Source: an uncultured Clostridia bacterium
GTDB taxonomy: Bacteria > Bacillota > Clostridia > Oscillospirales > Ruminococcaceae
DNA: 38,683 bases
Direction of reading: 5' to 3'
Assembly: GCA_945921635.1 (NCBI GenBank)
Contig: CAMEKZ010000003.1
Span: 1 to 38,683, forward strand
Of this stretch, positions 3,020 to 35,953 are shown in pieces (positions within the stretch are counted from its first letter, which is position 1; each line of letters begins with the position of its first letter). A program made the translations under genes and the position numbers. The notes beneath the pieces were generated by a model. That model saw nothing but the letters and a program-made list of their open reading frames with translations. It was not told the origin of the DNA and made no database searches.

Positions 3020-3163
3020 TTTAATTGCAGCTTATAGACAGCCGTACGACGCATTTTGATGCGTCTGACGGTCTTAAAAACATTTTATTTTGTTATCTAT
3101 ATAATAGATATACAGCGGCGCGGATTTCCGCTCCGCACAGAGCATCTGCTCTGTATTTACTGT

Positions 3164-3260
3164 ACAGAGTAGGATAATGCGCGTAAAGTGCCCGAGGGAC
3201 GGGGAGTTGTCCTCGGGACGAACACCACACGGTGGCGGTGCATTGTCCGCATCTCGCTGT
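3164..3260 (+). ncRNA. Tetrahydrofolate (THF) riboswitch aptamer, class I-like
   Basis: Matches the known THF aptamer layout: ACAG-AGTAG...CTCG-CTGT (P1), GGATAATGC/GCATTGTCC (P2, one G-U), core CGCGTAAAGTG, CCCGAGG/CCTCGGG hairpin (P3), ACGAA, CACC-ACAC-GGTG hairpin, GCGGTG; upstream of a folate-type ECF S component. Confidence 0.85.
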
Positions 3261-3309
3261 TGCATAAAAAGAGATAACGCCATATTTATCCCGAGTTATG
3301 CGATTGCGT

Positions 3310-3415: not shown

Positions 3416-3493
3416 TCATTTCAGCCGCCTGCGGCGGCATATTCGGCTTTGCCGAATCCTTAAAAAGGTTAGCACCTTTTTAAGATGAAATGA
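3416..3493 (+). repeat. Second multi-hairpin module: outer 8-bp stem enclosing three hairpins
   Basis: Outer TCATTTCA (3416-3423)/TGAAATGA (3486-3493); inside GCCGCC-TGC-GGCGGC (3424-3438), ATTCGGC-TTT-GCCGAAT (3441-3457), CTTAAAAAGGT-TAGC-ACCTTTTTAAG (3459-3484). Confidence 0.8.
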
Positions 3494-11817: not shown

Positions 11818-12098
11818 GCAACGGGTATACCCGTCTCAGACTGTCGATAAACCCACGCACCGCAAAAACGCAGTTTTTTATAATAAATGAGATTGTTTTT
11901 ATAGTTCGCTATTTTTTGTAAGTTTCGGAGAGCCTCAAATCGGCTCTCCGAAAGCGTTTTTGCTTACTTCGTCAAAAGCCGCCTACCGTACCTTTGTACG
12001 CCTACGGCGGCTTTTTCCTCGTCTGCGCGTGTTTCTCGAAGTCTGACAGCTTGTCGAAAAATCACTTTTTCGACAAGCTGCAACGGGTATACCCGTCT
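11818..12098. repeat. Nested hairpin region flanked by 19-bp direct repeats that each contain a 14-bp palindrome
   Basis: GCAACGGGTATACCCGTCT at 11818-11836 and 12080-12098; inside an outer imperfect stem (11836-11859/12024-12046), TTTCGGAGAGCC/GGCTCTCCGAAA, AAAAGCCGCC/GGCGGCTTTT, and a 15-bp stem CAGCTTGTCGAAAAA (12047-12061/12066-12080). Confidence 0.75.
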
Positions 12099-13101: not shown

Positions 13102-13180
13102 AATTTCTCCGTTTTTCTGATTTTATTGTCGTCTATTATACTTAACGTTATATATATACTTAATATTCCGTAAAGTAATC

Positions 13181-13566
13181 AAAAGGTGGAACTGCCTGCA
13201 GGTGCAACCTGCCCGCCGTTTCACTATGTGCAAAATATTTCCAAGTTGTAAAAAGGCGGAACTGCCTGCAGGTGCAACCTGCCCGCCGTTTCACGATGTG
13301 CAAAATATTTCAAAATTGTAAAAAGGCGGAACTGCCTGCAGGTGCAACCTGCCCCGCCGTCACACAAACATTTATATCTTGCAAAGATATTAAAAGGCGG
13401 AACTGCCTGCAGTCGCAGACTGCCCCGCCGTTTCACTATGTGCAAAATATTTCTAAGTTGTAAAAAGGCGGCTCCGCTCGCAGGTGCAACCTGCCCCGCC
13501 GTCACACAAACATTTATATCTTGCAAAGATATTAAAAGGCGGAACTGCCTGCAGTCGCAGACTGCC
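13181..13566. repeat. Six-unit tandem repeat, 70/71-bp period, hairpin plus two alternating spacer types
   Basis: AAAAGGYGG unit starts at 13181, 13251, 13321, 13392, 13463, 13534; hairpin core GCAGGT-GCA-ACCTGC or GCAGTC-GCA-GACTGC. Confidence 0.92.
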
Positions 13567-32782: not shown

Positions 32783-32899
32783 CATATTTGAAGCAGGAAG
32801 CGATTATGGATATACTGTAATCGAATGGAGGGACTACAAATGAAGAAGTATTATATCAATCTGACCGAGCAGGAACGCTCTCAAATCATACATTCGCTT

Positions 32900-33061
32900 C
32901 AAGTCGGAGCAAAGCGTGATAAGCTCGCTTAATCACGCCGCGACGGCTGCAACCGCGCAGCGGAGCTTTGCTCCGACGGGTTTCAGTGGGGGATTATTGT
33001 CCCCCATTGAAAGACGTATATGTCCTCTGCCGCCTAAGAGGCGGAGGAGATCTGCGCTTTG
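32900..33061. mobile_element. Candidate non-coding hairpin insertion element (162 bp)
   Basis: 13-bp stem GTCGGAGCAAAGC (32903-32915)/GCTTTGCTCCGAC (32965-32977) enclosing smaller hairpins; then TTTCAGTGGGGG/CCCCCATTGAAA and CTCTGCCGCCT-AAG-AGGCGGAGGAG; TT on both sides; removal restores ORF. Confidence 0.6.
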
Positions 33062-33135
33062 TTATAGATAAGAATAACGCACTTATGGCTAAAAGCAGAT
33101 ACACCGACGCTGTTGATGAAGTCATCTTAAAATCC

Positions 33136-33164
33136 TTGACAATAAAATATATAAATGTTACAAT
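33136..33164 (+). promoter_or_regulatory. Consensus sigma-A promoter upstream of the response regulator fragment
   Basis: TTGACA (33136-33141), 17-bp spacer, TACAAT (33159-33164). Confidence 0.7.
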
Positions 33165-33221
33165 TTAATCATCGGATCATTATGCTTATTGCGTGATACG
33201 AATTTTAAAGGGCGATGATAT

Positions 33222-33440
33222 ATGAAAATAGCAATATGCGATGATGAGCGGATATTTACGGATATTTTCCGTGAAAAGCTTGAAATGACCGCCGAAAAAT
33301 GCGGTATAGAATGTACTGTTTCAGCTTTCTTAAATGGTGCTGAAATGATAAGTATGCGTATACAACCTCGACCGCACTCGGCACTGCAACAGCTACAAAC
33401 ACCTACACCTGCGGCGACAGCAACTGGAAAGACAAGCTGA
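33222..33440 (+). pseudogene. Truncated LytTR/AgrA-type response regulator receiver fragment
   Basis: MKIAICDDERIFTDIFREKLEMTAEKCGIECTVSAFLNGAEMIS is receiver-like; from about 33350 the DNA is RHS-derived and read out of frame. Confidence 0.8.
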
Positions 33441-34561
33441 CCGCTTACAACGGTACTGCGATCACCTATGACAGCATAGGCAATCCGCTCAGCTACCGCA
33501 ATGGTATGAGCTTTACATGGAAGAACGGCAGACAGCTTGCGTCGTTTGAAAATTCTTCGAACTGGATTGACTATACCTATAACGCCGATGGCGTGCGCAT
33601 AGGCAAAAGCGGTACGAAAAATATCACCTATGAGGTATCGGGAACGCAGATACTCAGCGAGAAAAACGGTACAAACACTACCTACTATCTCTATGATGAA
33701 AGCGGCTCGCCGGTAGGACTTACCTACAAAGGTACTACATATTACTACCGCAAGAACCTGCAGGGCGATATTATCGCAATACTCAACAGCTCGGGAACGG
33801 AAGTTGTAAACTACTCCTACAATGCGTGGGGCAGATTGGTATCAATGACCGGAAATATGGAGCTGGGCGGTAATAACCCTTTCAGATACAGAGGGTACTA
33901 TTACGATACCGAAAGCGGACTTTATTATCTGAATAGCAGATATTATGACCCGGTGACGGGTAGGTTTATAAATGCGGACGGATATGTTTCTACCGGTCAA
34001 GGTATCGTTGGAAATAATATGTTTGCGTATTGCGGAAACGACCCGGTTAATAAAATCGATAATAATGGGCATCAATCGCAGCGCATTTACGATATTGCAA
34101 ATTCAATTATTACAGTTAGCAAAAATATCATTACTAATATATGTAATGAAATCAAGATAAAGAATACAACAGGGCTATACTTAGATAGTCTTCCTAAGAC
34201 TGGTCAACCAAATTCAAAAGGTACTTTGTACAATCCTGATGGAACAATAAAACAGAAGCGTTGGTATGGTCCAGATGGTGTTGCTGTAAGAGACAGAGAT
34301 TATAATCATCCGGGAAATATGGAATTTCCACATGACCATCAATGGACTGACGGCAAAAGAGGAACAGACCATCTACCACCTTCGCCTGAATTTGAATTCA
34401 GGTGGGAACCTATAGTAGGTGTAGGGTTATCTTCTGCTTGTGTGATAGGAATAATAATTGTTGCGGCAGATGATATTACAGTTTTTGGAATTTCTGATGA
34501 TTTTCTGTTTGGTCCACTTGCTGGTGGTTTTAGTGGTGGATTAACTTTGATTATGGGTTAA
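33350..34561 (+). CDS. RHS-repeat C-terminal fragment with unique tip domain (candidate polymorphic toxin, copy 1)
   Basis: RHS repeats and core NPFRYRGYYYDTESGLYYLNSRYYDPVTGRFINADGYVSTGQ; divergent tip with YGPDGVAVRDRDYNHPGNMEFPHDHQWTDGKRGTDH; no convincing start codon, first ATG 33506. Confidence 0.8.
   Translation, partial: KYAYTTSTALGTATATNTYTCGDSNWKDKLTAYNGTAITYDSIGNPLSYRNGMSFTWKNGRQLASFENSSNWIDYTYNADGVRIGKSGTKNITYEVSGTQILSEKNGTNTTYYLYDESGSPVGLTYKGTTYYYRKNLQGDIIAILNSSGTEVVNYSYNAWGRLVSMTGNMELGGNNPFRYRGYYYDTESGLYYLNSRYYDPVTGRFINADGYVSTGQGIVGNNMFAYCGNDPVNKIDNNGHQSQRIYDIANSIITVSKNIITNICNEIKIKNTTGLYLDSLPKTGQPNSKGTLYNPDGTIKQKRWYGPDGVAVRDRDYNHPGNMEFPHDHQWTDGKRGTDHLPPSPEFEFRWEPIVGVGLSSACVIGIIIVAADDITVFGISDDFLFGPLAGGFSGGLTLIMG
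33412..33869 (+). repeat. 458-bp exact direct repeat, copy 1
   Basis: Identical to 35167-35624 by eye, constant offset 1755. Confidence 0.93.
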
Positions 34562-35047: not shown

Positions 35048-35953
35048 TTTGACTTTACCTATGTATATGCTTATAACAAAGGCGGAAACATAACCGCTGT
35101 CAAGGAGTATGCGTATACTACCTCGTCAACGCTCGGCGATGTAATAAAGACCACAAGCTATACCTACGGCGACAGCAACTGGAAAGACAAGCTGACCGCT
35201 TACAACGGTACTGCGATCACCTATGACAGCATAGGCAATCCGCTCAGCTACCGCAATGGTATGAGCTTTACATGGAAGAACGGCAGACAGCTTGCGTCGT
35301 TTGAAAATTCTTCGAACTGGATTGACTATACCTATAACGCCGATGGCGTGCGCATAGGCAAAAGCGGTACGAAAAATATCACCTATGAGGTATCGGGAAC
35401 GCAGATACTCAGCGAGAAAAACGGTACAAACACTACCTACTATCTCTATGATGAAAGCGGCTCGCCGGTAGGACTTACCTACAAAGGTACTACATATTAC
35501 TACCGCAAGAACCTGCAGGGCGATATTATCGCAATACTCAACAGCTCGGGAACGGAAGTTGTAAACTACTCCTACAATGCGTGGGGCAGATTGGTATCAA
35601 TGACCGGAAATATGGAGCTGGGCGCGAATAACCCTTTCAGATACAGAGGGTATTATTACGATACCTAAAGCGGATTGTATTATCTGAATAGTAGGTATTA
35701 TGACCCGGTGACGGGTAGGTTTATTAGCCCTGAACCAAATGTTGATACGGCAAAGTTTGATGAGGGTGCCGGATTAAATGGATACAATGTGTTTGCTTAC
35801 TGTGCTAATAATCCGGTCATGTTCAAAGATGATAGCGGAGAATTTGTTATTTCTATATCTATAGGAATTGGCTCGCTTCTTACATGAGCAGCTTATGGTA
35901 TTGCTACAGCGGTTGGTGTTGGTGCAGGTGTTGCGAAAGGAAATTTATTATGA
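35048..35953 (+). pseudogene. RHS C-terminal fragment copy 2, with in-frame stops at 35666 (TAA) and 35885 (TGA)
   Basis: FTYVYAYNKGGNITAVKEYAYTT... then the same core as copy 1; DT*S versus DTES in copy 1; LLT*AAYGIATAVGVGAGVAKGNLL*. Confidence 0.85.
35167..35624 (+). repeat. 458-bp exact direct repeat, copy 2
   Basis: Identical to 33412-33869 by eye. Confidence 0.93.

Follow-up and report, generated by a model that had tools for sequence, protein, structure and literature searches.

Has the hairpin-dense DNA that splits one small open reading frame (ORF) of an uncultured Clostridia bacterium (genome G000) moved there, and if so, by what means? The 38,683-nt stretch that was analysed (the window) contains the ATG of this small gene at 32840, and 32840-32899 is translated into MKKYYINLTEQERSQIIHSL. 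The hairpin-dense insert follows at 32900-33061 (162 nt), then TT at 33062-33063 and then ATAGATAAG... Taken as 32900-33061 plus TT or as 32898-33061, it is one insertion in two registers, and the 164-nt insert has no coding capacity. The interrupted locus consists of these parts:

32840-32899, plus strand: 20 codons forming the 5′ half of the split gene, 93-96% identical at the DNA level to its uninterrupted counterpart in four congeners (G019, G025, G029 and G031).
32898-33061, minus strand: 164-nt element in an IS200/IS605-style cut register, CAAAGCGCAG...GACTTGAA, with an empty site in four relatives, seven further copies in G000 and a covariance-model match of 151.8 bits at 32898-33066.
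33062-33066, minus strand: target pentanucleotide TATAA (TTATA on the plus strand), already in the empty site.
33064-33168, plus strand: 3′ half of the gene; homology to the relatives ends at ~33131, with unrelated sequence beyond.

The joined protein was searched against 71 genomes of the same genus. Uninterrupted homologues at 85% identity were found in G019, G025 and G029, and the 5′ part only in G031. At the DNA level, the empty site CATTCGCTTATAGATAAG is uninterrupted in all four congeners, where CATTCGCTT and ATAGATAAG are contiguous. Identity is 93-96% on the left side, and on the right half of the gene it is 94-96% over 70 nt in three relatives and 96% over 24 nt in G031. The intact homologues are 58-aa proteins, MKKYYINLTEQERSQIIHSLIDKKNALMAQGRYTDAVDEVILKMMKAKKKAFIVRT(F/V)S with M or L following ILK, and the junction is read through in three congeners. 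The four uninterrupted sites and the three intact homologues across the junction thus indicate that the window carries an exact 164-nt insertion breaking one small gene, which bears out the initial annotation of a non-coding, hairpin-dense insert within a single small ORF.

The initial annotation also held that exact removal restores the frame. Removal of 164 nt does produce a 54-aa ORF, but its last 11 residues (SLTIKYINVTI) have no homology to the relatives. Because homology ends at ~33131, these residues do not belong to the original protein and the window gene has lost its 3′ end too, so that removing the insert restores the frame, not the full protein. Past ~33131 (33131-33168), promoter-like sequence TTGACAATAAAATATATAAATGTTACAAT replaces the gene homology. 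The G031 gene (L045) diverges after about codon 26, so that breakage of the gene has occurred more than once. The small protein belongs to a multi-copy family of ~50-60 aa (LTxxER...GRYTDAVDEV) for which no Pfam assignment was found; paralogues with 42-49% identity lie in the same genomes, at G000:C67:26-169 (L049), G019:C53 (L048) and G019:C9 (L050).

The element is not confined to this site. BLAST with the 162-nt query finds eight near-complete copies in G000, the seven beyond the window copy being 79-92% identical to it. A covariance model built from 43 copies was run on the 71 congener genomes and gave 9 matches in G000, at least 39 in G019, 21 in G061, 18 in G084 and 8 in G029, with one or two in each of eight other congeners, making 13 of 71 genomes with the element. 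Mean identity is 97% among the 19 G019 copies compared. Other copies and an uninterrupted site, as expected of a mobile element in the initial annotation, are therefore both at hand. In a pattern scan of GTDB (one genome per species), at least 120 stretches matched, mostly in Clostridia, mainly uncultured Clostridia and Oscillospiraceae including Ruminococcus, with some chance matches outside. Two viral contigs (L103, L104) carry the element or its left part, and the phage and plasmid collections searched gave no match.

Copies are ~75-247 nt long, mostly 137-178 nt, too short for a transposase, and no element-borne ORF was found among those inspected. No Rfam match reaches the gathering score, and no description of an equivalent element in Clostridia was found in the open-access literature. 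The family is uncatalogued, widespread in Clostridia, mobile and gene-free. Our preferred reading, with a probability of about 0.6, is a mobile element of the type of the palindrome-associated transposable elements (PATEs), non-autonomous and without a transposase of its own, as an ends-only relative of the IS200/IS605 family.

Some copies adjoin other repeats. Six G029 copies (L351-L356) are nested in a second repeat of 350-400 bp (CTGTAGAAAAAGG ... TTTTTCGACAAGCTG) and were multiplied together with it; for this reason the G029 copies with identical flanks were rejected as a bigger autonomous element. At L007 (G000:C59), the right end of a copy adjoins a ~178-bp repeat (TTAAGGCAATACCGCACAAAG ... 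CTTTGTGCGGTGTTGCCTTAA) that has many genus-wide matches and looks like an ordinary MITE with terminal inverted repeats (TIRs).

The insert had also been taken as evidence that the hairpin-rich intergenic modules of the window can move. The insert is mobile, but the covariance model matches the window only at 32898-33066, so that the other modules are not copies of it. Elsewhere in the window, a tandem array of 70/71-bp palindromic units (AAGGCGGAACTGCCTGCAGGTGCAACCTGCCCGCCGTTTCAC...) at 13173-13565 is unrelated to the element, and an inverted-repeat pair around ACGGGTATACCCGT, 214 nt apart, occupies 11821-12096. A THF riboswitch (3163-3261, 93 bits) precedes the gene of a membrane protein at 3490, and 18-nt repeats at 1571-1714 encode an Ala/His/Val/Pro-rich stretch (AHAVHAVPAVPA) within the long ORF 54-1955. 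At 33222-33650, a response-regulator-like ORF opens (MKIAICDDE...) and passes directly into RHS-type sequence, 300 nt of which are repeated at 94% identity 1755 nt downstream (35106-35405); this join is a recombination or assembly joint.

How the element is built was read from the copies on the minus strand, where the order is the TATAA target, a linker, bulged hairpin 1, hairpin 2, a third hairpin region and the right end TTNAA. The left part of the consensus is TATAA / CC-linker-P1 left / hairpin 1 (CCCCCGCC...GGCGG-C-GGG, bulged) / hairpin 2 (CAGTGGGAG...CTCCCACTG), and after hairpin 2 come GGAGC..GCTCC / P1 right / GGTTGCAATC.TCGCA / right hairpin / GCTCCGATTTAA. The window copy contains the following parts:

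33052-33056, minus strand: P1 left strand CGCAG, pairing with 32956-32960, with compensatory changes in 5 of 6 P1 pair columns over 43 copies.
33023-33048, minus strand: hairpin 1, CCTCCGCC TCTTA GGCGG-C-AGAGG, with a bulged base; supported by covariation, and similar to the hairpin at the left end of IS605-type elements from one TnpA clade.
32981-33012, minus strand: hairpin 2, TTTCAATGGGGG...CCCCCACTGAAA, with 16 pairs in the family, 9 of them changed on both sides.
32961-32975, minus strand: hairpin CGGAGC-AAA-GCTCCG, whose CGGAGC arm pairs here or with the right-end GCTCCG.
32956-32960, minus strand: P1 right strand CTGCG, supported by covariation across 43 copies.
32914-32938, minus strand: inner hairpin GCGTGATTAAGCGAGCTTATCACGC near the right end, from folding and copy alignments.
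32903-32915, minus strand: right-end arm GCTTTGCTCCGAC, the alternative 13-bp partner of 32965-32977.
32898-32902, minus strand: right terminus TTGAA (family consensus TTNAA), from copy alignments.

P1 is a long-range stem that joins the left linker to the centre, and its double-sided changes support it. Over the 30 pairs scored, 91.7% of cells pair, compared with 83.2% after shuffling and 38-50% after sliding. Double changes occur in 16 pairs and 101 cells, the shuffled means being 9.4 and 29.4, and none of 500 shuffles reaches the observed covariation values. Hairpins are present near both ends: hairpin 1 on the left is supported by covariation, and that on the right, GCGTGATTAAGCGAGCTTATCACGC or GGGGCAAGCCCC, is seen in alignments, outside the covariation scoring. 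The 13-bp stem of GTCGGAGCAAAGC (32903-32915) with GCTTTGCTCCGAC (32965-32977) and the local CGGAGC-TTT-GCTCCG fold, pointed out in the initial annotation as mutually exclusive, are both present in the window copy. The same choice recurs across the family, where the GGAGC arm has two possible partners, the adjacent arm and the right-end GCTCC. Compared with shuffled sequences, the element folds with a z of -6.0 as DNA and -6.8 as RNA, and no shuffle is equally stable.

Such a fold could be more than packaging for the ends. It may be a working device in which P1 and the partner choice of GGAGC switch the exposure of the right end in single-stranded DNA or RNA, the element spreading without Y1 or TnpB through a non-standard borrowed enzyme and not by the IS200/IS605 route; we consider this possible but unlikely. 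Quite doubtful, too, is a mobile structured RNA, in which the fold would act as a guide or scaffold like that of TnpB or IscB, or in a ribozyme-like way, with mobility dependent on the fold. The strong covariation of the multi-branched fold and its stability as RNA are in line with this, and guide RNAs of IS605/TnpB elements overlap the right ends. However, paired columns on the minus strand contain 47 A-C and only 24 G-T cells. Selection for G-U pairs in an RNA of this strand is thus not apparent, and the counts fit pairing as DNA or an RNA read from the other strand. The absence of an Rfam match and of ORFs in the inspected copies also speaks against the RNA reading.

The preferred PATE-type reading calls for an enzyme acting in trans, for which the initial annotation had also suggested a search. 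Neither Y1 (PF01797) nor TnpB (PF07282) has a match in G000 (83% complete) or G061 (76% complete), or a match over the cut-off in G084 or G029; for G000, this is to be read against its 83% completeness. A search that started from TnpA of the only IS605 in G019 gave close relatives in G293, G351, G422 and G132. The first ~45 nt of the element were then compared, using a tuned local alignment, with ~70 loci fetched for Y1 transposases. The top scores fall in this one TnpA clade (G351 59, G132 42, G422 38, G019 38), whereas the shuffled maximum is 29 and the best other locus scores 33, and the matching left ends sit upstream of tnpA. When G019 copies of the element are used, 5 of 5 clade left ends beat 2000 shuffles each. 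With the window copy as query, G351 is the one left end of the five to match clearly, scoring 38 where the best shuffle reaches 29.

The layout is alike too, TTTAAC-linker-hairpin in the IS605 clade (in four of its five members) and TATAAC-linker-hairpin in the element, as in TTTTAACCTAAATGGGCAAGAAGTCCCCCGCCTCTAAGGCGGGGGG of G351 and TATAACTTAGGCAAGATGTCCCCCGCCTCTAAGGCGGCGGG of a G019 element copy. An A/T-rich pentanucleotide ending in AA, then C, is common to both, as is a hairpin of the form GTCCCC(C/T)(G/A)CCTCTAAGG(C/T)GG-GGG. The clade differs in carrying tnpA (and tnpB where seen) and in its flanking pentamer, TTTAA instead of TATAA. The G019 IS605 appears to end in ...GGGAGTATGTCAC, a different hairpin ending in GTCAC, unlike the TTNAA right end of the element. 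No transposase-bearing element with both ends matching was found. Thus, the alignments support kinship with one TnpA clade at the left end but not at the right end, and this clade is a candidate source of the enzyme through left-end similarity only.

Y1 elements of the genus mostly differ from the element at their ends. The Y1 elements of G025, G019, G031 and G008 have no end similarity by short-word BLAST; the left-end likeness of G019 is below the sensitivity of single-copy BLAST and emerged with the tuned alignment. Different ends exclude the multi-copy IS200 of G014, with its relatives in G009, G025 and G035, and the IS605 of G095 (L255, L262). A tblastn search for TnpA near the scanned copies matched only an unrelated ORF from the query set, and no transposase was seen when ORFs were read in copies without a nearby right end as possible autonomous versions.

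Domesticated RAYT (TnpA-REP) transposases, which would move the element as a REP/REPIN-type sequence, have little probability as the source. Like the element, REP/REPIN sequences are dispersed, hairpin-forming and largely intergenic, with Y1-type enzymology proposed (PMC6006769), and Y1 proteins of RAYT length (~250-280 aa) are encoded in some copy-bearing genomes (G096, G097, G100). These RAYT-like loci, however, have no element copies within ~1.5 kb, and most copy-bearing genomes tested have no Y1 protein of this length. REP/REPIN units are shorter, with a GTAG-type guide and a RAYT that is usually REP-flanked (PMC6006769), none of which was seen for the element; the latter is ~140-175 nt long, with asymmetric, defined ends and a fixed TATAA target.

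The ends also bear on whether target bases are duplicated. The initial annotation had suggested a 2-bp duplication and inverted CAA(A)G/CTTTG ends. If so, the element might be a classical MITE mobilized by a TT/AA-duplicating DDE transposase, as the 162-nt core is flanked by a 2-nt direct repeat and TIR-bearing repeats, such as the 178-bp repeat beside L007, do exist in the genus. But the ends are asymmetric, and alignments of the G000 copies and of 43-44 diverse copies reveal no TIR in any. The left flank is TATAA in 7 of 8 G000 copies (once AATAA) and in 20 of 20 G019 copies, 27 of 28 combined, the two sets having been chosen independently of this pattern; it is also TATAA in 11 of 20 further covariance-model matches, mostly from other congeners. 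Right ends in G000 are TTAAA, TTGAA or TTTAA. Those in G019 are likewise TTNAA, with A, C, G or T beyond them, and such variable bases, opposite a fixed left flank, are at odds with a DDE-type duplication.

The empty target already holds TATAA (CTATAAGCG), as judged from one insertion and four empty alleles. The AA common to the left TATAA and the right TTNAA is found in nearly every copy, so a duplication is not one of random target bases. The TT/AA repeat is better read as these shared bases, as in IS200/IS605 elements, and duplication appears unneeded; the DDE reading is largely refuted by the lack of TIRs and we leave it a very small chance. In four G019 copies (L298, L306, L312, L313), the right-end unit TGACGGGGCAAGCCCCTTATTGAA is repeated in tandem with small variants, and the second unit follows the TTGAA of the first without a gap, which points to TTGAA as a cleavage site. 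The demonstrated empty allele is that of the window copy only. No clean one was found for the 20 G019 sites in G025, G029 or G031, where flanks are too diverged, or for the seven other G000 copies, where flanks are too diverged or matches end at the junction.

Although the genome is a fragmented 201-contig draft and the stop of homology at ~33131 points to other rearrangements at the locus, loss of the element from the relatives or a chimeric contig is scarcely credible, since the eight G000 copies share their ends although they lie at unrelated loci, and four relatives have the identical, exact empty site, in three cases within an intact ORF.

The element is inserted on the 3′ side of a fixed pentanucleotide, has hairpins near its two ends and shows neither TIR nor duplication. 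This fits the rules of IS200/IS605 elements and PATEs, in which a tetra- or pentanucleotide lies 5′ of the insertion and near-terminal hairpins occur without TIR or duplication (PMC7290912, PMC6006769, PMC3119063). PATEs were described in Haloquadratum walsbyi (PMC3119063), and a PATE-like sequence in Halanaerobium (PMC7290912). The present element resembles them in its lack of TIR and target duplication, its near-terminal palindromes, non-coding length and 4-5 nt 5′ target, as well as in having shortened variants and outnumbering transposase-bearing elements (PMC3119063, PMC7290912). It differs in being bacterial (Clostridia) and spread over many genomes, and in its covarying long-range stem, two exclusive folds and IS605 kinship at the left end only. 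The IS605 of Sulfolobus islandicus, with a TTTAA insertion site and an reRNA ending in UUCAC (PMC11043419), is like the G019 IS605 in its TTTAA-type insertion motif and TCAC right end; it is archaeal and TnpB-encoding, whereas the Clostridia element ends in TTNAA. The family itself is new, as are its reach in Clostridia, its long-range fold with covariation and its partial connection with one clade of TnpA.

Under the PATE-type reading, a Y1 (HUH) TnpA supplied in trans would bind the terminal hairpins on single-stranded DNA and cut the left end just behind TATAA and the right end just behind TTNAA. The element would leave as a single-stranded circle and be joined to DNA again 3′ of a different TATAA, a route that would create no true target duplication. 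The covarying P1 and the two exclusive right-side folds may serve to draw the two ends together or to set when they are exposed. In the window, the element landed within a small gene, which it disrupted.

A covariance model of the element would keep such repeats from being annotated as terminators, RNA genes or small ORFs. If the preferred reading is right, the element offers a compact system (~140-175 nt, with exact ends and a fixed TATAA target) for studies of transposition in trans through single strands, in which the covarying fold allows a direct test of how both ends of such elements meet. A common, uncatalogued class of mobile DNA would then be shaping intergenic regions and breaking small genes in gut and rumen Clostridia.
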